From: an uncultured Lachnospiraceae bacterium
Lineage (GTDB): Bacteria > Bacillota > Clostridia > Lachnospirales > Lachnospiraceae
Direction of reading: 5' to 3'
Length of the DNA stretch: 64,000 bases
Assembly: GCA_947631505.1 (NCBI GenBank)
Contig: CANRLR010000003.1
Location: 1-64,000, forward strand
Under the pieces are notes generated by a model. The model was not told the DNA's origin. It ran no database searches and worked only from the letters and a program-made list of their open reading frames with translations. The position numbers and the translations under genes were made by a program. Below, piece after piece: positions 11,084 through 55,098 of the stretch (position 1 is the stretch's first letter; the number at the start of each line of letters is the position of its first letter).

Positions 11084-12805
11084 ATGAAAGAATTATTGCG
11101 ATATATGAAAGAATACCGAAAGGAGAGTGTGCTGGCACCTCTTTTCAAATTGTTAGAAGCAACATTTGAGCTTTTTGTACCTCTTGTCATGGCATCCATT
11201 ATTGATAAGGGAATTGTGAATGAGGATTACAGCCATATTGCCAAAATGGGCGGAATTCTTATTTTACTGGCAATTGTCGGGCTGGCTATGGCATTGACTG
11301 CCCAATACTTTGCTGCCAAGGCAGCAGTTGGCTTCTCGACAAAATTGAAGCATGAATTGTTTGGTCATATTCAGAAATTGTCATTTGGTGATATGGATAG
11401 AATCGGAACTTCAACGATGATTACCCGGATGACAAGTGATGTCAATCAGGTACAAAATGGAGTGAACCTTGTTCTCCGTCTGTTCCTCCGTTCGCCATTT
11501 ATCGTATTTGGAGCGATGGGGATGGCATTTACCATTGACGTGAAGGCTGCTCTTGTTTTTGTTGTGGCGATTCCCCTTTTGTCTGTCGTTGTATTTGGAG
11601 TTATGATTGCCAGTATACCATTATATAAAAAGGTGCAGGGGGCCTTGGATACGATACTGGGGCGGACAAGAGAGAATCTGACCGGCGCAAGAGTGTTGCG
11701 GGCATTTCATAAAGAGGAAGAGGAGCGGGAGAAATTTATTGCGGAGAATGATACGTTAAATCATGTTCAGATGGCAGTAGGAAGAATTTCTGCCCTTATG
11801 AATCCAATTACTTTTGTTATTATCAATGGAGCGGTGATTGCCTTGATCTGGCTCGGGGCCGTCCATGTGGATAATGGTATTCTGACGCAGGGTGAGGTAG
11901 TGGCACTGGTAAATTATATGTCCCAGATTCTTGTGGAACTTGTAAAGCTGGCAAATCTGATCGTCAGTGTCAATAAGGCAGTGGCATGTGGAAACCGTAT
12001 TCAGGAGCTGTTTGAGACGAAGCCGGGACTGATATCGGATGAAAGAGCAGAATCCGGTGCTTGTAATCTGACACCGGTTGTTTTTGATAAGGTGGGTCTG
12101 ACTTATCCGGGGGCAGCCGAGGAATCACTTACGGATATTTCATTTTGTGCGGACAAGGGAGAAATGGTAGGTGTGATTGGAGGCACCGGTTCCGGAAAGA
12201 CTTCTCTCGTGCATCTTATTCCCCGTTTTTACGATATTACAAAGGGAGCACTCACGTTAGGCGGTGAAGAGGTGTCAAAGTGGAATCTCCAGCAGTTAAG
12301 GGAGCGGGTCGGTGTTGTCCTGCAAAAGTCGGTTCTCTTTCAGGGGACCATTCGCTCGAATCTTCTTTGGGGAAAAGAAGATGCTACCGAAGAGGAGATG
12401 TGGGAGGCACTTCGTATTGCCCAAGCGGATGAAATTGTAAAGAAAAAGCAGAAGGGTCTGGATGAACCGGTTGAGCAGGAGGGACGGAATTTTTCCGGCG
12501 GACAGAGGCAGAGGCTGGCGATTGCGAGAGCACTCGTGGGGAAACCGGAAATTCTGATTTTGGATGACAGTGCTTCGGCACTGGATTATGCTACGGATGC
12601 CAGACTCCGTAAGGCAATACGGGAATCTCTGGATACAACGGTGTTCGTTGTATCCCAGCGGGCAGCGTCTGTGAGAAATGCAGATAAGATTGTCGTGTTA
12701 GAGGATGGCTGTGTTGCAGGAATCGGTACTCATGATGAACTGCTTGATACGTGCGGGGTTTACCGGGAAATTTATGAATCCCAGTATGGAAAGGGGGCGA
12801 GGTAG
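11084..12805 (+). CDS. ABC exporter half, degenerate-site subunit
   Basis: Half-transporter of 573 residues with an N-terminal six-helix exporter domain (about 15-300) and a C-terminal ATPase. Walker A is GGTGSGKTS near 370, the signature is FSGGQRQRL near 470, and Walker B reads LILDDSASALD near 490. The residue after the Walker B Asp is Asp where a catalytic Glu is normal. This matches the non-catalytic subunit of heterodimeric exporters such as BmrC and TM287. The H-loop position also differs (VVSQRAASV instead of an AHRLST type). The gene after it encodes the canonical partner. A 144-nt structured gap separates them. The substrate is unknown. Confidence 0.9.
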   Translation: MKELLRYMKEYRKESVLAPLFKLLEATFELFVPLVMASIIDKGIVNEDYSHIAKMGGILILLAIVGLAMALTAQYFAAKAAVGFSTKLKHELFGHIQKLSFGDMDRIGTSTMITRMTSDVNQVQNGVNLVLRLFLRSPFIVFGAMGMAFTIDVKAALVFVVAIPLLSVVVFGVMIASIPLYKKVQGALDTILGRTRENLTGARVLRAFHKEEEEREKFIAENDTLNHVQMAVGRISALMNPITFVIINGAVIALIWLGAVHVDNGILTQGEVVALVNYMSQILVELVKLANLIVSVNKAVACGNRIQELFETKPGLISDERAESGACNLTPVVFDKVGLTYPGAAEESLTDISFCADKGEMVGVIGGTGSGKTSLVHLIPRFYDITKGALTLGGEEVSKWNLQQLRERVGVVLQKSVLFQGTIRSNLLWGKEDATEEEMWEALRIAQADEIVKKKQKGLDEPVEQEGRNFSGGQRQRLAIARALVGKPEILILDDSASALDYATDARLRKAIRESLDTTVFVVSQRAASVRNADKIVVLEDGCVAGIGTHDELLDTCGVYREIYESQYGKGAR

Positions 12806-12840
12806 TGTGAAAAATATGCTCGATAGCATATTTTTCACAC
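12805..12840 (+). repeat. Perfect 16-bp hairpin after the first ABC gene
   Basis: An uninterrupted inverted repeat pairs 12805-12820 with 12825-12840 around a CGAT loop. It begins on the last base of the upstream stop codon. The stem is AT-rich and no T-run follows, so it is not a standard terminator. It could limit 3' decay or uncouple translation of the two ABC halves. It is absent from the second copy of the adjoining element at 49955. Confidence 0.8.
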
Positions 12841-12949
12841 GGCTATTTGTTTCTGAGCGAAAACAAATAGCTTTGATCCGACACGAGAAACTCTTCGAGA
12901 TTTCTCGTGCGGTTCTTCGCGATAAATCGCTCAGAAATGAGGAATTAAT
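12841..12949 (+). repeat. Structured 110-nt repeat element, copy 1
   Basis: A non-coding block between the two ABC genes, nearly identical to 49955-50064. It holds stem I (12842-12852 with 12861-12871), stem II (12882-12890 with 12901-12909) and stem III (12919-12922 with 12927-12930). The loop of stem I, CTGAGCGA, is also complementary to 12927-12934. Extended, 12850-12860 pairs perfectly with 12927-12937 over 11 bp, so an alternative long-range helix competes with stems I and III. The Shine-Dalgarno GAGG (12939-12942) lies one base past that helix, and the element ends at the ATG of the next gene. Confidence 0.85.
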
Positions 12950-14683
12950 ATGACACAAAAGGAAACTATTCAGAAAGTGCTCCGTTATATCAGGCGGTAT
13001 TGGTTCTATTTGATTTTATCGCTTTTACTGGCTGTTGTCACGGTGGCATTTACCTTGTATATACCGATTCTTACCGGAGATGCCATTGATCTGATTGTGG
13101 GAAAAGGACAAGTGGATTACAATGGTGTATTTGCTGTATTGAAAAAAATTGCTCTCGCCATTGGCATTACCATGATTGCACAGTGGATTATGAACGTGTG
13201 CAATAATATGATAACCTATGGTGTGGTACGGGATATTCGGACGGATGCTTTTATCAAAATTGAGCAGCTGCCATTACGTTATATTGACAGTCATTCCTAT
13301 GGGGAGGTCGTCAGCCGTGTGATTGCAGATGCAGATCAGTTTGCTGACGGACTCTTAATGGGATTTACCCAGTTGTTTACCGGCGTTATTACGATTCTTG
13401 GCACATTAGGATTTATGCTTCGTGTCAATGTTTCGATAACGGTCGTAGTCGTTATTATCACGCCGGTCTCGCTCTTTGTGGCCAGTTTTATTGCGAAGAG
13501 AACTTATCAGATGTTCCGCCTGCAATCGGAAACAAGGGGAGAACAGACAGCACTGGTGGAAGAAATGATAGGGAATCAGAAAGTAGTACAGGCTTTTGGA
13601 CAGGAAGAAAGGGTAATGGAGCGGTTCGATGAAATCAATGACCGCTTGCAGAAGTGTTCTTTGAGGGGTATTTTCTTTTCTTCTATTACGAATCCATCCA
13701 CCCGGTTCGTAAACAGTCTGGTATATGCCAGTGTAGGAATTTTCGGAGCAATCTATGCCGTACGCGGCGGCATTACGGTAGGACAGTTATCTTGTTTTTT
13801 AAGTTATGCGAATCAGTACACAAAACCATTTAATGAAATTTCCGGTGTGGTTACGGAACTGCAGAATGCTATCGCTTGTGCCGGACGGGTACTGGAATTA
13901 ATTGAGGAAGAACCGGAGCCGGAAGAGCCGGCGGATGCAGTGGAGCTGAAAGAGGTGGATGGAAGTGTTGTACTTCAGGATGTATCCTTTTCCTATGAGC
14001 CGGAGCAGAAGCTGATTGAACAATTCTCCCTGAACGTCAAGCCGGGACAGCGGGTGGCAATTGTCGGGCCGACAGGATGTGGAAAGACAACATTGATTAA
14101 TCTTTTGATGCGTTTTTATGATGTGAGAGAGGGCGCCATTCAAGTGACGGGACACGATATTCGCCACGTGACGCGGAAGAGCCTGCGGAAAAACTATGGT
14201 ATGGTATTACAGGAAACTTGGTTAAAGCGTGGAACGGTGCGGGACAATCTTGTGATGGGATATCCGCAGGCAACGGAGGAAGAGGTTATCCGGGCAGCAA
14301 AGGCAAGTCACGCACACAGTTTTATCAAGCGGCTGCCGAAGGGATATGATACGGTTATTGGTGAGGATGGCGGAAGTCTCTCCGCCGGACAGAAACAGCT
14401 GCTGTGCATAACGAGGGTAATGCTCTGCCTGCCGCCGATGCTGATTCTGGATGAGGCGACGTCCTCGATTGATACCCGTACAGAAATGCGGATTCAGAAA
14501 GCCTTTGCCACGATGATGAAGGGGAGAACCAGTTTTATTGTGGCACACAGGCTTTCGACGATTCAGGAGGCAGATGTGATTCTTGTTATGAAGGACGGAC
14601 ACATTGTGGAACAGGGGAATCATGACGAGCTGTTGGCAAAAGGTGGTTTTTATAAAATGCTGTTTGAGGCACAGTGGTCGTAG
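12950..14683 (+). CDS. ABC exporter half, catalytic subunit
   Basis: Partner half-transporter of 577 residues: exporter membrane domain at about 18-305, ATPase at about 335-577. It has a canonical Walker A (GPTGCGKTT, near 375), signature LSAGQKQLL near 478, Walker B LILDEATSSID with the catalytic Glu, and an H-loop in VAHRLST. Paired with the upstream subunit it forms a heterodimer with one functional and one degenerate ATP site, as in BmrCD-type multidrug exporters. Translation begins at ATG 12950, using the GAGG at the end of the structured repeat. It is probably part of the TetR-controlled operon. Confidence 0.92.
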   Translation: MTQKETIQKVLRYIRRYWFYLILSLLLAVVTVAFTLYIPILTGDAIDLIVGKGQVDYNGVFAVLKKIALAIGITMIAQWIMNVCNNMITYGVVRDIRTDAFIKIEQLPLRYIDSHSYGEVVSRVIADADQFADGLLMGFTQLFTGVITILGTLGFMLRVNVSITVVVVIITPVSLFVASFIAKRTYQMFRLQSETRGEQTALVEEMIGNQKVVQAFGQEERVMERFDEINDRLQKCSLRGIFFSSITNPSTRFVNSLVYASVGIFGAIYAVRGGITVGQLSCFLSYANQYTKPFNEISGVVTELQNAIACAGRVLELIEEEPEPEEPADAVELKEVDGSVVLQDVSFSYEPEQKLIEQFSLNVKPGQRVAIVGPTGCGKTTLINLLMRFYDVREGAIQVTGHDIRHVTRKSLRKNYGMVLQETWLKRGTVRDNLVMGYPQATEEEVIRAAKASHAHSFIKRLPKGYDTVIGEDGGSLSAGQKQLLCITRVMLCLPPMLILDEATSSIDTRTEMRIQKAFATMMKGRTSFIVAHRLSTIQEADVILVMKDGHIVEQGNHDELLAKGGFYKMLFEAQWS

Positions 14684-44554: not shown

Positions 44555-44605
44555 AATGGAGGCAACGCGAGCCATTTCGCATAAACCTTTGGAAAGGAGG
44601 TCTGT

Positions 44606-47158
44606 ATGAAACAATATCGCGTAACGGGCATGAGCTGTGCTGCCTGTAGTGCCCGGGTGGAAAAGGCGGTAAGCAGGGTAGAGGGTGTCACCTCTTGTTC
44701 GGTTAGTCTATTAACAAATTCTATGGGCGTAGAGGGAACGGCATCGGATTCGGATATTATAAAGGCTGTGGAGGATGCCGGTTACAGTGCTGTTACAAAA
44801 GAAGAGAACCGTGCGGCTCTGAGCCAGAGCAGAGATTTTGGCGGAGAGGAGGCACTGAGGGATAAAGATACACCGGTTCTAAAAAAACGGCTCCTTACTT
44901 CCCTTGTTTTTCTCTTCGTCCTGATGTATTTTTCGATGGGACATATGATGTGGAACTGGCCGCTTCCTGCGGTCATGGCAGACAATCATGTGGCAATGGG
45001 ACTGCTGCAGTTACTTCTCACGATTATAATTATGGTAATCAACCAGAAGTTCTTTATCAGCGGTTTTAAGAGCCTGTGGCATCGTGCTCCCAATATGGAT
45101 ACTCTTGTTGCCTTAGGGGCGAGTGCAGCGTTTGTCTATAGTACCTATGCACTGTTTGCTATGACCGATGCACAGATGCGGGGGGATTCCATGGCAAGTA
45201 TGGCGTATATGCATGAATTCTACTTTGAGTCGGCAGCCATGATACTGACCTTAATAACGCTCGGCAAAATGCTGGAAGCCCGCTCGAAAGGAAGGACGAC
45301 GGATGCCCTCAAGGGACTTATGAAGCTATCGCCAAAGACAGCCGTTCTATTGCGTCAGGGAGAAGAAGTGACGGTATCGATAGAAGAGGTGAGGAAAGGG
45401 GACATATTCGTTGTGCGTCCCGGAGAACATATTCCGGTCGATGGTGTCGTTGTAGAGGGCAATAGTGCCGTGAACGAAGCAGCCCTGACTGGTGAGAGTA
45501 TTCCGGTAGATAAGGAGCAGGGAGATAAGGTTTCGGCTGCTACGGTAAATCAGTCCGGGTTTTTGACCTGTGAGGCAACGAGAGTCGGTGAAGACACTAC
45601 TTTGTCACAGATTATTCGTATGGTCAGTGATGCTGCCGCAACGAAGGCACCGATTGCCAAAGTGGCAGATAAGGTTTCGGGAGTTTTTGTTCCTGCGGTA
45701 ATCGGTATTGCCGTTATTACGATGATAATCTGGCTTTTGACAGGAAATGGTGTGGGATATGCACTGGCAAGGGCCATCTCTGTTCTGGTTATCAGCTGCC
45801 CATGTGCCCTTGGTCTGGCAACACCAGTAGCAATTATGGTAGGAAACGGTGTGGGCGCGAAAAACGGAATTATGTTTAAGACGGCAGTTTCTTTGGAAGA
45901 AACGGGGAAAATGGATATCATTGCATTCGATAAAACAGGCACAATTACAACGGGAGAACCGAAGGTAACGGATGTGCTGCCGGCAGAAAACGTGAGTGAA
46001 GAAGAACTGCTCACCCTTGCGTATAGTCTGGAACAGAAAAGTGAGCACCCGCTGGCAAAAGCAGTGCTGCTGTATGGGGAAGAACGGGGAGTAACAGCAA
46101 AAGAAGTCGAGGAATTTCAAGCATTGCCGGGGAATGGGCTGAAGGCGGTGTATGAAGGTGACTTAATTCTCGGTGGTAGTTTCCGTTATACGAGTGAACA
46201 GGCAGAAGTAACCGGACCATGGAAGGAATGTTCGGAAAAGCTTTCGGAACAGGGGAAAACGCCGCTGTTTTTTGCAAGAAAGGGAAAGCTTCTTGGGATT
46301 ATTGCGGTGGCGGATGGAATCAAGGAAGACAGTCCGCGGGCAGTAAAGGAGTTACAGAACATGGGAATCCGTGTTGTTATGCTGACAGGAGATAATGAGC
46401 GGACGGCAAAGGCAATCGGAGCACAGGCAGGAGTTGATGAAGTCATTGCCGGTGTGCTGCCGGAGGGGAAAGAGCAGGTTATTTCACAGCTGAAGCAAAG
46501 TGGAAAAGTAGCGATGGTTGGTGACGGTATTAACGATGCTCCGGCATTGACAAGGGCAGATATCGGAATTGCGATAGGTGCAGGAACCGATATTGCCATT
46601 GATGCGGCGGATGTTGTGCTGATGAAGAGTAAGCTCAGCGATGTACCGGCAGCTCTGAGACTGAGCCGTGGCACACTTAAAAATATTCATGAGAATTTAT
46701 TTTGGGCATTTATTTATAATGTCATAGGAATTCCGCTGGCGGCAGGAATATGGATACCGATATTTGGGTGGCAGCTGAACCCGATGTTCGGTGCAGCCGC
46801 AATGAGTTTATCCAGCTTTTGCGTCGTAACGAATGCTCTCCGGTTGAATTTTCTGAAGATTCATGATGCGGGCCGGGATAAGAAAAAAAAGAACAGAGCA
46901 GGAAATGTGAAAAAGGAAAGATTAAAAAAGGAAAGTGAGGAAATGAAAATGAATAAAGTAATGAAAATCGAGGGAATGATGTGCGGACATTGTGAGGCAA
47001 CGGTAAAGAAGGCACTGGAGAGTCTGGAACAGGTGAAAGAGGCAGAGGTAAGCCACAAGGATGGAACCGCAGTTATAACACTCAATGCCGAGATATCCGA
47101 TGAGGAATTAAAAAAGGCAGTAGAGGAGAAAGATTATACTGTAGTTTCAGTGGAATAG
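44606..47158 (+). CDS. copA: Copper-exporting P1B ATPase with C-terminal CopZ-like domain
   Basis: Cu(I) efflux ATPase of 850 residues in the membrane. It has an N-terminal HMA domain with GMSCAACS (1-68), eight helices, CPC in [14 protein letters not shown] near 398, phosphorylation site [12 protein letters not shown] near 441, and [16 protein letters not shown] near 640. After the last helices a charged linker (about 755-780) leads to a second HMA domain with [15 protein letters not shown] (782-850). Most CopA proteins have all HMA domains at the N-terminus. The linker contains a ribosome-site-like AGTGAGGAA followed by ATG codons. GGAGG precedes ATG 44606. Confidence 0.95.
46949..47158 (+). 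CDS. Possible internally initiated CopZ-like copper chaperone
   Basis: In-frame internal start within copA. AAAAGGAAAGTGAGGAA (46926-46942) is followed by ATG 46943 and ATG 46949; the latter gives a 69-residue product beginning [15 protein letters not shown], which looks exactly like a free-standing CopZ. If used, one mRNA gives both pump and chaperone. The alternative is that it is only the C-terminal domain of CopA. Sequence-based proposal only. Confidence 0.4.
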
Positions 47159-49096: not shown

Positions 49097-49924
49097 ATGG
49101 CATTATCGGCAGAAGAACTGGAACGTTATTCCAGACATATTATATTGCAGGGAGTAGGGCTTGCCGGACAAAAGAAACTGGCAGCCGGAAAAGTATTAGT
49201 AATTGGAGCCGGTGGGCTAGGTTCACCAGTTCTTATGTATCTTGCAGCCTCCGGTGTGGGTACGATTGGTATTATGGATGATGATGTGGTGGATAAATCG
49301 AATCTACAGCGGCAGATCATTCACAGTACGGGGCAGGTTGGTTTTTCCAAAGCAGAATCGGCGGCAGGGCGGATAGAGAAAATAAATCCTTACATAAAAA
49401 CAGTAATATATAAGGAGCGTGCTGCGGCGGAAAATCTGCTGGAGATAATCAGTCAATATGATTTTATTGTAGATGGAGTCGATAATTTTTCTTCCAAGTT
49501 TTTAATTAATGATGCCTGTGTACTGGCTCAGAAACCGTTTTCTCACGGAGGAATCCGGGAGTTTTCCGGTCAGCTTATGACATATGTGCCGGGAGAGGGG
49601 CCGTGTTACCGCTGCATTTTTGAAGAAATTCCACCGGACGGTGAGGTGGACAGCTGTTCTCAGGCGGGGGTGTTAGGTACGCTGCCGGGAATTATCGGAA
49701 GTCTGCAGGCATTGGAGGTGCAGAAATATCTCATCGGGACAGGAGAACTCCTGACGGGACATATGCTGACTTTTGATGGTCTTACGATGCAATTTCGGAA
49801 GATACCGTTTTCCGGTAAATCCCCTCATTGCCGTGTTTGCGGTGAACGGGCAGATATTATGGAATTAAAAGAAGAAAATTACAGACCAAAGCAGGCGTGC
49901 ACGGTTTTGCCAAAAGATTCATAA
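49097..49924 (+). CDS. MoeB/ThiF-type E1-like adenylyltransferase
   Basis: ATP-dependent adenylyltransferase of 275 residues that activates the C-terminus of a ubiquitin-like sulfur carrier (MoaD or ThiS type). ERYSRHIILQGVGLAGQKKL at the start, nucleotide loop VIGAGGLGSPVLMYLA near 36, and DKSNLQRQIIHS near 65 are diagnostic. Zinc ligands are CYRC near 172 and CRVCGE near 250. There is no C-terminal rhodanese domain, and no sulfur carrier gene is adjacent, so MoeB, ThiF or another carrier cannot be told apart. AAGAGG lies upstream of ATG 49097. The structured repeat follows it. Confidence 0.88.
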   Translation: MALSAEELERYSRHIILQGVGLAGQKKLAAGKVLVIGAGGLGSPVLMYLAASGVGTIGIMDDDVVDKSNLQRQIIHSTGQVGFSKAESAAGRIEKINPYIKTVIYKERAAAENLLEIISQYDFIVDGVDNFSSKFLINDACVLAQKPFSHGGIREFSGQLMTYVPGEGPCYRCIFEEIPPDGEVDSCSQAGVLGTLPGIIGSLQALEVQKYLIGTGELLTGHMLTFDGLTMQFRKIPFSGKSPHCRVCGERADIMELKEENYRPKQACTVLPKDS

Positions 49925-49954
49925 ATGGTAAGGAGAGAAAAATTTATTCACGTT

Positions 49955-50064
49955 GGCTATTTTGTTTCTGAGCGAAAACAAATAGCTTTGATCCGACACG
50001 AGAAACTCTTCGAGATTTTTCGTGCGGTTCTTCACGATAAATCGCTCAGAAATGAGGGATTAAA
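49955..50064 (+). repeat. Structured 110-nt repeat element, copy 2
   Basis: Nearly identical to 12841-12949: one inserted T and four substitutions in 110 nt. The C-to-T change in the right arm of stem II turns a G-C into a G-U pair, so the fold survives. TTTCTGAGCGA (49965-49975) again pairs with TCGCTCAGAAA (50042-50052), and GAGGG (50054-50058) sits just beyond as the ribosome site for ATG 50065. The G-to-A change weakens stem III. Confidence 0.85.
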
Positions 50065-50754
50065 ATGAAAGAGCAATTTTTAAGAACTGAACTTATCTTG
50101 GGGGAAGAGGCCATAAATAAATTAAAAAATGCTCATGTTGCGGTCTTTGGCATTGGCGGAGTCGGTGGTTATGCAGTGGAAGCTCTTGTGCGGAGCGGGG
50201 TGGGTGCCATTGATCTGATTGACAATGACACAGTTGCCCTCAGTAATCTTAACCGGCAGATTATTGCACTGCACAGTACAATTGGCAGATATAAAACCGA
50301 TGTGATGCGGGAGCGCATATTAGATATTAATCCAGAATGCAAAGTAGAAGTATATCATTGCTTTTTTTTGCCCGAAACAAAAGAGGTGTTTGATTTCTCA
50401 CGCTATTCCTATGTAGTGGATGCCGTGGATACGGTGACAGCAAAAATTGAACTGGTCATGCAGGCAGAGAAGTCCCACACACCGATTATCAGCAGTATGG
50501 GAGCGGGAAATAAACTAAATCCGGCGGAATTTGAAGTGGCGGATATTTATCAGACCTCTGTATGCCCGCTGGCAAAGGTGATGCGGCGGGAACTGAAAAA
50601 AAGAGGAATAAAAAAATTAAAGGTTGTTTATTCCAAAGAACAGCCAATACAGCCTAAAACGGATGAGGGGCGAAGTACACCGGGTTCTACGGCATTTGTT
50701 CCGTCGGTGGCAGGATTAATCATCGCTTCGGAAGTGATAAAGGATATCATTTAA
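50065..50754 (+). CDS. tcdA: tRNA threonylcarbamoyladenosine dehydratase
   Basis: E1-like enzyme of 229 residues that cyclises t6A37 to ct6A in tRNAs. VAVFGIGGVGGYAVEALVRSGVG near 28 binds ATP, DTVALSNLNRQI near 58 and DAVDTVTAK near 112 follow, with the catalytic Cys candidate in SVCPLAKVMRREL near 170. The C-terminal GSTAFVPSVAGLIIASEVI is typical of TcdA/CsdL. Its ribosome site is supplied by the structured repeat. The sulfur relay partner CsdE is absent. Confidence 0.93.
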   Translation: MKEQFLRTELILGEEAINKLKNAHVAVFGIGGVGGYAVEALVRSGVGAIDLIDNDTVALSNLNRQIIALHSTIGRYKTDVMRERILDINPECKVEVYHCFFLPETKEVFDFSRYSYVVDAVDTVTAKIELVMQAEKSHTPIISSMGAGNKLNPAEFEVADIYQTSVCPLAKVMRRELKKRGIKKLKVVYSKEQPIQPKTDEGRSTPGSTAFVPSVAGLIIASEVIKDII

Positions 50755-53116: not shown

Positions 53117-54967
53117 CTATAGTGAAATGGTTACCTGATATTTTCGGAGAAAATAATCAATCTGCAAGAGATAAGCAATCATCTGTGGGCCCGCCATCAA
53201 CTGGCCATACCAGGGAGCACCGTAATTTTTGGGACGGTCTAAGAATGGCTGCAGGGCAGCGAGATTCAGAAGCGGTTTAAGCGGACTTTCATTATTGAGT
53301 ATTTCTCTCAGCCGTTTGGCGAGAAGATTTTCATAATAGGGATTATAGGTTTTTGGGTAAGGACTTTTCCGGCGAAAGAGAATTTCGTCTGGTAAAAGTC
53401 CTTTCGACGCTTGTCGCAAAATGTTCTTTACAACACCGCCTCTTGCTTTCATTTCCCAAGGAATATTAAAAACATAATCCACTAATGCCCGGTCGGCAAA
53501 TGGGACACGTGCTTCCAGTCCGGTGTGCATACTGGTACGGTCCATGCGGTTCAAAAGGGTCTGCATGAAATAGCGGATATTGAGATATCCGATTCGGCGG
53601 CGGTTTGTTTCGATTTCATTCTCTTCCGGCAGAACATTAATTTCACTGATGGAATGATGATAACTATTTTGAACATAATCTTCCATATGAAGTTCGGATA
53701 CCAGTTCTTTGGAAAGTAGTTTTTTTCTCGGCTCCAGAGATGGTGTCCAGGGAAAGGTCTCGGATTTCAGCATATCTTCCCGGTGGAACCATGGATATCC
53801 GCCAAAGACTTCATCTGCACATTCTCCGGTCAGCACCACCTTATGGGAATGGCTCACTTCCTGACAGAAATATTGGAGCGAGGAGTCAATGTCTGCCATA
53901 CAAGGGAAATCATGGGCATCTACCGAACGGGTGAGCAGATCTGCCTGAACCGTATTGCTGCATTCCAGATATTGGTGTTCTGAATGTAGAAATTGGACCA
54001 TTTTATCTACAAAAGGGCGGTCTTGGGAAGGCTGGAAGGCATTTGCTTTGAAATATTTGTCATTTTCCGTAAAATCAAAGGAGAAAGTCGTGAGCTGTTC
54101 TCCTTTTTTTTGTAATTCGCGGGCACAGACTGCAGAAACCACACTGGAGTCAATACCACCGGACAAAAAGGTACAGATGGGAACATCGGAGACCATTTGC
54201 CGCCGGATGGCATCCTGAACAAGAAACGAAGTCTTTTCTACTGTTGTATCGTATGAATCAAAATGTGGGCGGCTCTCTAAATGATAATAATTCGTTACGT
54301 GATTCCCATGGCGGCTGCAAGTCATATATGTGCCGGGGAGCAATTCGTGAAAGCCTTTGAAAATTCCGTTTCCCGGTGTCCTTGCCGGGCCAAGGGCAAG
54401 AATTTCATTCAGTCCGTTCCGGTCAAGAACTGCTTTTATTCCCGGAAAGCAGAAAATTCCCTTAGGTTCTGAAGAGAATACAATTGTATTATGAATTTCC
54501 GTATAAAAAAGCGGCTTGACACCGAAGGAATCGCGGAACAGTGTTAGGGTACGGTGTCTCTCATCATAAATGGCAAAAGCAAAAATTCCGTCTACCTCCT
54601 TTACAAAATCGGCACCGAACGTAAGAAAGGAAAGGAGTAGAAGCTCTGTGTCAGAATGAGTTTTCGGAATGACCTTGTGAGCTTTAAGATTTTCCCGCAG
54701 TGTATCGGAATTGTATATCTCACCGTTGTAGACAATGTGATAACCATATGAATCATAATAGCGGGACATCGGCTGGCTGCCGCCGGCTAAATCAATAATA
54801 GAAAGACGGGTATGTGCCAGTCCACAATTGTCGAATAGTAGTGTTCCGTTCCCATCTGGTCCTCTGTGGTGAAGTTTTTTTCTCATGTTGTCTAAAATAT
54901 GGTTATAATAACCCGCATTTTTGCTGAATTGTGCAGTGGAATCATAAAAACCGGAAATGCCGCACAT
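53117..54967 (-). CDS. asnB: Asparagine synthetase, glutamine-hydrolysing
   Basis: Amidotransferase of about 616 residues converting aspartate, glutamine and ATP to asparagine. The true start is ATG 54967, because the protein must begin Met-Cys: MCGISGFYD puts the nucleophile Cys at position 2. The glutaminase domain has RLSIIDLAGGSQP and YNGEIYN. The synthetase domain shows the PP-loop FLSGGIDSSVVSAV near 265 and GECADEVFGGYPWF near 385. GGAGG lies 3 to 8 nt upstream of the start. It is convergent with dpaB. Confidence 0.95.
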   Translation of the reverse strand: MCGISGFYDSTAQFSKNAGYYNHILDNMRKKLHHRGPDGNGTLLFDNCGLAHTRLSIIDLAGGSQPMSRYYDSYGYHIVYNGEIYNSDTLRENLKAHKVIPKTHSDTELLLLSFLTFGADFVKEVDGIFAFAIYDERHRTLTLFRDSFGVKPLFYTEIHNTIVFSSEPKGIFCFPGIKAVLDRNGLNEILALGPARTPGNGIFKGFHELLPGTYMTCSRHGNHVTNYYHLESRPHFDSYDTTVEKTSFLVQDAIRRQMVSDVPICTFLSGGIDSSVVSAVCARELQKKGEQLTTFSFDFTENDKYFKANAFQPSQDRPFVDKMVQFLHSEHQYLECSNTVQADLLTRSVDAHDFPCMADIDSSLQYFCQEVSHSHKVVLTGECADEVFGGYPWFHREDMLKSETFPWTPSLEPRKKLLSKELVSELHMEDYVQNSYHHSISEINVLPEENEIETNRRRIGYLNIRYFMQTLLNRMDRTSMHTGLEARVPFADRALVDYVFNIPWEMKARGGVVKNILRQASKGLLPDEILFRRKSPYPKTYNPYYENLLAKRLREILNNESPLKPLLNLAALQPFLDRPKNYGAPWYGQLMAGPQMIAYLLQIDYFLRKYQVTISL

Positions 54968-55004
54968 AAAAACCTCCATTCCGGAGTGTTAGCGGGATTT
55001 TCAC
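54942..55004 (-). CDS. Possible 20-residue leader peptide overlapping asnB start
   Basis: On the minus strand GTG 55004 follows AGGAGG (55015-55010) by 5 nt and opens a 20-codon frame (MKIPLTLRNGGF...) ending inside asnB at 54942. The strong ribosome site suggests a translated leader that could modulate asnB initiation. Nothing more supports it. Confidence 0.25.
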   Translation of the reverse strand: MKIPLTLRNGGFYVRHFRFL

Positions 55005-55098
55005 ACTAACCTCCTGCATATGCATAGTAATATCATTGATATACTTTATGATGCAGCAGAAAGAAATATACGGGTAAAATGGGAGGAGGAAAAAGAGG

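Follow-up and report, generated by a model that had tools for sequence, protein, structure and literature searches.

REPs are usually located after genes, and REP/BIME systems with RAYT (TnpA-REP) proteins have a Y1 transposase as their defining part; IS110/IS1111 elements encode a DEDD transposase and have their target selected by a non-coding RNA. Pneumococcal BOX, RUP and SPRITE repeats, the Correia repeats of Neisseria and MITEs are presented (PMC3049150) as short, base-paired, intergenic repeats with many copies, and mobile group II introns (PMC2882425) as mobile RNAs that fold and increase in number inside a genome. Here we describe a family of ~140 nt that very probably represents a non-coding mobile element integrating in sense between the Shine-Dalgarno sequence (SD) and the start codon of a gene. 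Two copies lie in the stretch of DNA that we analysed (the window: 64,000 nt, positions 1-64,000 of contig CANRLR010000003.1, assembly GCA_947631505.1, from an uncultured Lachnospiraceae bacterium); the window's genome, 2.74 Mb in 49 contigs with an assembly that is 99.7% complete, is called G000 below.

Copy 1 separates the two halves of an ABC exporter (Table 1). The initial annotation had let it begin at 12841 and had seen the same block near 49955. While the repeat is real (~96% identity between 12841-12952 and 49955-50067), the 5' limit was set too short and missed a 36-nt palindrome (GTGTGAAAAAT...ATTTTTCACAC; 12805-12840) that is part of the element, the true span of copy 1 being 12805 to ~12947. 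With a covariance model built on the entire unit (R2), the match of copy 1 spans 12805-12952 and that of copy 2 spans 49933-50067. The three local stems of the initial annotation (hairpins 1 to 3) are present, and its perfect 11-bp long-range pairing as well as the GAGG one base further on are both exact. Predicted folding is strong for 12841-12962 (z -5.0) and for 12806-12962 (z -7.1), with none of 200 shuffles equally stable in either case, and in the minimum free energy fold of copy 1 the long helix continues into the SD. By inspection there are no terminal inverted repeats: GTGTGAAAAAT at the 5' end has no inverted counterpart at the 3' end, and the sole inverted repeat, 11 bp long, is internal.

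Table 1. Features of the two copies, their neighbouring genes and candidate relics in the window. A3 is the alignment of 129 copies described in the text.
Feature	Position	Strand	Remark
5' flank GCGAGGTA	12797..12804	+	native SD/spacer and end of upstream ABC half
TAG stop of upstream ABC half	12803-12805	+	
Hairpin 0, GTGTGAAAAATATGC/GCATATTTTTCACAC palindrome, 5' end of element	12805..12840	+	
Hairpin 1, GCTATTTGTTT/AAACAAATAGC, 8-nt loop	12842..12871	+	8/9 counted pairs changed on both sides (A3)
Hairpin-1 loop CTGAGCGA, 5' strand of loop-tail (pseudoknot-type) pairing	12853..12860	+	
Hairpin 2, CCG-A-CACGAGAAA...TTTCTCGTG-CGG, variable	12878..12912	+	missing from repeated short versions
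Hairpin 3, GCGA-TAAA-TCGC	12919..12930	+	rival of loop-tail pairing for 12927-12930
Tail TCGCTCAG, partner of loop 12853-12860	12927..12934	+	11 bp when extended, 12850-12860 with 12927-12937
Shine-Dalgarno GAGG, positioned for downstream gene	12939..12942	+	
Second ABC exporter half (ABC_membrane and ABC_tran), downstream gene of copy 1	12950..14683	+	
ThiF family gene upstream of copy 2	49097-49924		
Copy 2, hairpin 0 truncated (most of palindrome gone)	49933..50064	+	loop 49968-49975, tail 50042-50049, SD 50054-50057
ThiF family gene downstream of copy 2	50065..50754	+	
Doubtful relic before start codon at 44606	~44560..44600	+	R2 E 0.28, match 44568-44608
Likely internally deleted relic of another subfamily, before start codon	~54968..55006	-	R2 E 0.01, match 54965-54999

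In the likely relic on the minus strand the 5' end GTGTGAAAATC is joined to ...ACACTCCGGAATGGAGG (a 3' end of the CTCCGGAATGGAGG type), so both ends are kept and the middle is lost. A hairpin of the hairpin-0 type occurs in 133 of the 193 parsed copies with sufficient upstream sequence, and short versions without hairpin 2 recur in two genomes (G102, G043), which makes hairpin 2 seemingly dispensable for spread. Six copies (L180, L190, L191, L200, L313, L314) carry an extra AGCGAACATAGTTCGCT-like module or a hairpin inside the hairpin-0 loop; apparently the element grows as small palindromes are added. Hairpin 0 also stands by itself at two places in G000 (L378, C10:19812; L380, C16:57830), possibly as a remnant or as a separate small palindrome.

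A covariance-model search across the genome and its relatives, proposed in the initial annotation, turned up a family. In G000, R2 gave 49 matches at E up to 0.1, 17 of them strong (E below 1e-15); some of the weaker ones are hairpin 0 on the reverse strand or partial remnants, and several matches lie at contig ends, a pattern typical of repeats. The strong copies fall into at least two subfamilies. The second (L372, L375-L377; G000 contigs C14, C6, C7, C10) matches the first in hairpin 0 and in the outer hairpin-1 arms, but has a loop and tail of its own (CCGAAGCAC/GTGCTTCGG) and a different hairpin 2, and stands before trpS and other genes. Beyond G000 the distribution is patchy: a plain DNA search found the element in 13 of 61 genomes (G000 among them; at this threshold the window's genus has 13 carriers out of 37 genomes searched), model R1 in 15 of 150 (a sample of about one genome per genus of the family) and R2 in 16 of 295 genomes of the order, spread over two families, five of the 16 carriers having at least 10 scored candidates each; most genomes searched had no match. 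A scan for the SD pattern gave at least 115 matches, some by chance in unrelated taxa, and the organism labels of its MAG contigs are possibly mis-binned. The initial annotation did not recognise the family, and in Rfam 15 no family reached its gathering threshold; the best match below threshold scored 23.8 bits against a cut-off of 76, and the weak matches belong to unrelated families. We likewise found no published description of such an element in the literature searched, most subscription papers being outside reach. The plasmids searched held no copy, nor did the viral contigs, searched with two exact 20-mer tails. Two unannotated 'phage' records match over 47 and 45 nt only; one of these two, MT836788.1 (L363, labelled Bacteriophage sp.), has a related element before a gene that we take to be enolase-like, and this unverified record may be a bacterial contig.

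The element is thus short, non-coding and multi-copy, and no reading frame is conserved across the copies. Copy 1 does have a frame (12807-12953, plus strand; GTG AAA AAT ATG...) that stays open until a TGA which overlaps the start codon (ATG at 12950), as would be expected of a mobile small reading frame in which the native SD drives a GTG-started leader peptide through the element to the next start codon. This we consider highly improbable: differences in hairpin length shift the end of the frame or fuse it to the gene, and among 67 copies that were read many have an early stop or no start codon at that place. Given a frame that is open in copy 1 but not conserved elsewhere, the leader-peptide reading was rejected.

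As to where the copies settle, 195 full-length matches yielded 194 parsed copies, all distinct, and 182 of these show a normally spaced SD and a start (ATG or GTG) with an open frame that either spans 50 codons or more or continues past the end of the retrieved sequence, the spacing being 6 nt in 159 of the 182. Random stretches of similar size had the same arrangement in 733 of 5160 cases. Among the 129 copies from outside the SD-pattern scan, 121 lie directly before a start codon, in sense and with SD, start and ORF (at least 50 codons long in 119), a proportion that is biased upward since the BLAST query, R1 and R2 all include the SD and start region and copies without these score lower. 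In G000, 13 of the 16 strong copies that could be judged are directly before a start codon; the 17th is at a contig end. The gene behind L392 begins 18 nt further downstream with an SD of its own, and two strong copies (L381, C1:123192; L394, C6:95229) have no start codon at their 3' end, possibly because they have decayed or were inserted elsewhere. Copies lying away from start codons, which the initial annotation had named as an argument against its own reading, are thus the exception.

What follows the element is diverse. In the window it is an ABC exporter half (copy 1) and a ThiF-family gene (copy 2). In G000, N-terminal pieces downstream resemble an electron-transfer-flavoprotein-type subunit, enoyl-CoA hydratase, NAD synthase and a PBP1A-type protein, with further matches to TrpS, AtpD, Lgt and RbfA and, behind a fragment at a contig end, RNase R; GatC follows the element in a relative. 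These pieces are short and, except for RbfA and GatC, all score below curated whole-protein cut-offs. The genes behind the element are functionally unrelated and do not look like a regulon.

Sequence comparison with relatives establishes orthologous sites that lack the element. For copy 1, none of 28 other orthologous loci has it within 170 nt upstream, and in the close orthologues (e.g. L147, L150, L153, L162) the second ABC half begins at, or a few bases past, the stop of the first; copy 1 occupies exactly that gap, and element-free orthologous sites (e.g. GGAAAGGGGGCGCGGTGATATG) support the reading of its 5' flank as native SD/spacer. For copy 2, apparently the same upstream gene (judged by eye) ends immediately where the second gene begins in one relative (L357). 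Two pairs of filled and empty sites are the cleanest. At a gene that we take to be AMP-ligase-like, the filled site of G017 reads CAGATACAGGGAGGTATA followed by GTTTG...AAATGAGGTATA-CA-ATG and the empty site of G004 reads CAGATACAGGGAGGTATA-CG-ATG; at gatC, G017 is filled (TTTAGGGAGGATTA followed by GTGTG...AAAAGAGGATTA-TT-ATG) and G025 empty (TTTAGGAGGATTA-TT-ATG). Here, GAGGTATA (AMP-ligase-like) and GAGGATTA (gatC) flank the element on both sides, and the repeat ends 2 bases before the start codon. Element-free orthologues also exist for rbfA and for two genes that are presumably S4-like (a small gene) and flavin-reductase-like. The element-free sites put the insertion point between the native SD and the start codon.

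In both cleanest cases, ~8 bp that include the SD (GAGGnnTA) thus stand on either side of the element, and the new SD may be viewed as duplicating that of the host. Other junctions differ. At the S4-like gene (L177) the 3' side is the host's GAGGATA-AT and the 5' spacer, ATTA, fits the consensus of the element rather than the host, so a clean 8-bp duplication cannot account for every junction; recombination at the SD, rather than clean target duplication, could have produced this one. At copy 1 the spacers differ between the two sides (GAGGTA versus GAGGAATTA) and its new SD looks element-borne. Among the roles suggested in the initial annotation, that of a mobile leader donating a ribosome site is well supported by these element-free orthologous sites, by the SD on both sides, by the many copies and by their placement at start codons.

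Flanks were also compared across the collection. An SD-like tetramer lies within 16 nt upstream of hairpin 0 in 117 of 133 copies, compared to 19% at random positions on the same strands, and the profile directly before the element is roughly G-G-A/G-G-N-N-T-A. The insertion point reads TA in 85 of 133 copies, compared to 48 of 337 ordinary gene starts when read at the corresponding position. In 13 of 122 copies the two flanks match each other exactly over at least 10 bp (10-14 bp), where ~1.5 such copies would be expected with flanks shuffled among copies, and in 84 of the 122 the match is 3 bp or shorter; age, conversion between copies, selection on the SD in use or an inconstant duplication may explain why long duplications are scarce. 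In five of 133 copies, a tail and SD from another copy precede the element. In G000, a copy before atpD (F1 ATPase beta; L391, C42:5820-5981) stands behind the apparent tail of another copy.

Could the same picture arise without any targeting of the SD, from an ordinary MITE-like repeat that inserts widely (e.g. at TA) and survives selection mainly where it lands between SD and start? The TA at the insertion point, the lack of long flank matches in most copies and the few G000 copies away from start codons would fit, as would the expectation that gene-damaging insertions are purged. We nevertheless regard this as rather unlikely, for selection has little cause to keep the SD-like tetramer of the 5' flank once the 3' SD is used, and harmless intergenic sites should be filled as well, yet 121 of 129 copies (a count that the search biases upward) are in sense at start codons. 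Nor does the element have the terminal inverted repeats of a MITE.

Whether the fold is maintained was judged from an alignment (A3) of 129 rows, namely the window copy and 128 of the 194 parsed copies (non-redundant, one contig-end copy dropped), built with MAFFT and hence blind to structure; pair counts exclude hairpin 2, as MAFFT sets the subfamilies out of register there. In hairpin 1 and the loop-tail helix together, 94.5% of cells are paired versus 26-40% after the partners are shifted by 1-3 columns, and 11 of 16 pairs show two-sided change against 5.4 in shuffles. Compensatory changes, the lack of which would in the initial annotation have pointed to an inert remnant, are therefore present. 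The loop-tail helix by itself is 92.1% paired, with 46 two-sided cells compared to 16 in shuffles; three of its pairs show two-sided change, a number not above shuffles (137 of 500 reach 3). Its loop and tail differ by subfamily and match within each: CTGAGCGA/TCGCTCAG, CCGGAGCGT/ACGCTCCGG, CCGAAGCAC/GTGCTTCGG, CCGCAGGCG/CGCCTGCGG, TCAGAGC/GCTCTGA and TGCTGAGC/GCTCAGCA. At least six exactly complementary bases between loop and tail are seen in 159 of 190 copies, as opposed to 223 of 1250 combinations with tails swapped between different cores. Hairpin 3, whose 3' strand is common to the tail, is 88.5% paired and has two pairs with two-sided change, again not above shuffles (424 of 500 reach 2); in a few copies the hairpin-1 loop, hairpin 3 and the tail change together. 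Covariation thereby shows that the strand is able to form hairpin 1, with its loop pairing to the tail just before the new SD.

It is this geometry that had led the initial annotation to propose a translational switch or a thermometer-like element. A cis-regulatory RNA switch (riboswitch, r-protein site or thermometer), spread as useful copies, would have the tail pair with the hairpin-1 loop or else with hairpin 3 and the SD. The tail does keep two pairings that exclude each other, some positions in loop, hairpin 3 and tail change jointly, the element is almost always in a leader, and the long helix that enters the SD in the minimum free energy fold of copy 1 is widely possible: this extension is 89.4% pairable in A3 (56-71% when slid) with 30 two-sided cells versus 11.3 in shuffles. 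Of these cells, however, 26 belong to a single pair adjoining the loop, and the four pairs closest to the SD account for only 2, so that the covariation is mainly outside the SD; hiding of the SD is possible but its conservation is unsupported. The tail-SD pairing has no two-sided change in A3, and the tail/SD hairpin of the first consensus fold found no support in this larger alignment. Moreover, in 60 of 178 copies folded with a pseudoknot-free model, the mean unpaired probability of the SD is 0.328 versus 0.301 with shuffled upstream sequence, and 0.325 with loop and tail withdrawn. Computed accessibility thus being about that of shuffled upstream sequence, with the SD neither more hidden nor more exposed, no clear off switch is seen, and neither the translational switch nor the thermometer is upheld. 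Unrelated downstream genes provide no regulon, and recent mobility is suggested by near-identical copies in one genome and by the lack of the element in most genomes. Hence we consider a switch unlikely.

Our preferred reading is that the element moves, and that it does so into one kind of site. Its usual position is directly 3' of SD-NNTA, with ~2 bases from the repeated SD-NNTA to the start codon; since the best-preserved cases have the SD stretch on both sides, the start codon retains a normally spaced SD while the old one is displaced upstream. An enzyme supplied in trans might recognise the folded ends of the element and a target of the GAGGnnTA type, and copying of the SD would render an insertion nearly harmless, so that the spacer between SD and start could serve as a safe harbour even in trpS or atpD. 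On the mRNA the element would form a folded spacer by which translation of the gene is uncoupled from that of its upstream neighbour, translation presumably starting from the gene-adjacent SD, and the loop-tail pairing may serve either movement (as single-stranded DNA or RNA) or translation. A yet more specific version has the integration machinery read the SD itself, move the element as a folded single strand of RNA or DNA that the loop-tail pairing keeps together, duplicate the SD, colonise starts, including those of essential genes, without silencing them, and rewire operon coupling; we put it forward as a tentative proposal, more doubtful than not in its entirety.

Two candidates for the enzyme were looked for. 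No Y1 transposase was found in the G000 assembly, with 8 of 17 carriers having one, and no reverse transcriptase either, this being present in 9 of the 17 and missing from eight, including a genome of 2 contigs. Neither was found in all carriers and both were rejected as a common mobiliser. Among 32 truncated copies, judged by eye, no obvious parent element emerged. These data also bear on a SINE-like retroelement, whose folded RNA a reverse transcriptase would copy in trans, with target duplications of variable length. Its strong fold, the absence of terminal repeats and the clearest flank matches, which range from ~8 to 14 bp, would agree with such an origin, as would the excess of G-U over A-C on the sense strand of hairpin 1 (49:11). 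This excess is weak, though, in the loop-tail helix (44:34) and reversed in hairpin 3 (11:30), and reverse transcriptase is missing from the G000 assembly, 99.7% complete, and from eight carriers. A retroelement appears quite unlikely.

Integration behind the SD would have consequences beyond the family itself. The SD is among the most widespread landmarks of bacterial genes, and an element that settles behind it and copies it would have a neat way to spread without killing its host. Operon expression would change, too: at copy 1, a folded spacer with its own SD parts the two ABC halves. The family may so be looked upon as a set of natural, repeatedly copied translation-start modules, and it raises the question of an enzyme that recognises an SD in DNA.

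How, then, does the element compare with known systems? With preQ1-type pseudoknotted translational riboswitches it shares an H-type-like pairing beside the SD, yet it differs by its unrelated downstream genes, many near-identical copies, no SD-hiding signal and no known ligand. Like IS110/IS1111 elements it is specific in its choice of target, which in their case involves a non-coding RNA; unlike these, it has no conserved frame, and its flanks can be duplicated. REP/BIME sequences resemble it as palindromic extragenic repeats with many copies, but the Y1 transposase was not found in the G000 assembly nor in 9 of 17 carriers. Like mobile group II introns (PMC2882425), the element is folded and multiplies inside a genome, whereas it measures only ~140 nt, reaches no Rfam family at threshold and comes from an assembly in which reverse transcriptase was not found. 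Also comparable are MITEs, BOX/RUP/SPRITE and Correia repeats (PMC3049150), which are similarly short, non-coding and base-paired, with many intergenic copies, some flank duplications and, presumably, movement in trans; what distinguishes the element is that it has no terminal inverted repeats, lies in sense at SD/start junctions and has a loop-tail pairing that is co-changed between subfamilies. As it lacks the terminal-repeat hallmark of MITEs, and neither REP/RAYT nor retroelement proteins were found, we class it more broadly: the element behaves as a small non-autonomous mobile repeat and is grouped with the small mobile repeats, among which settling at SDs is its unusual property.
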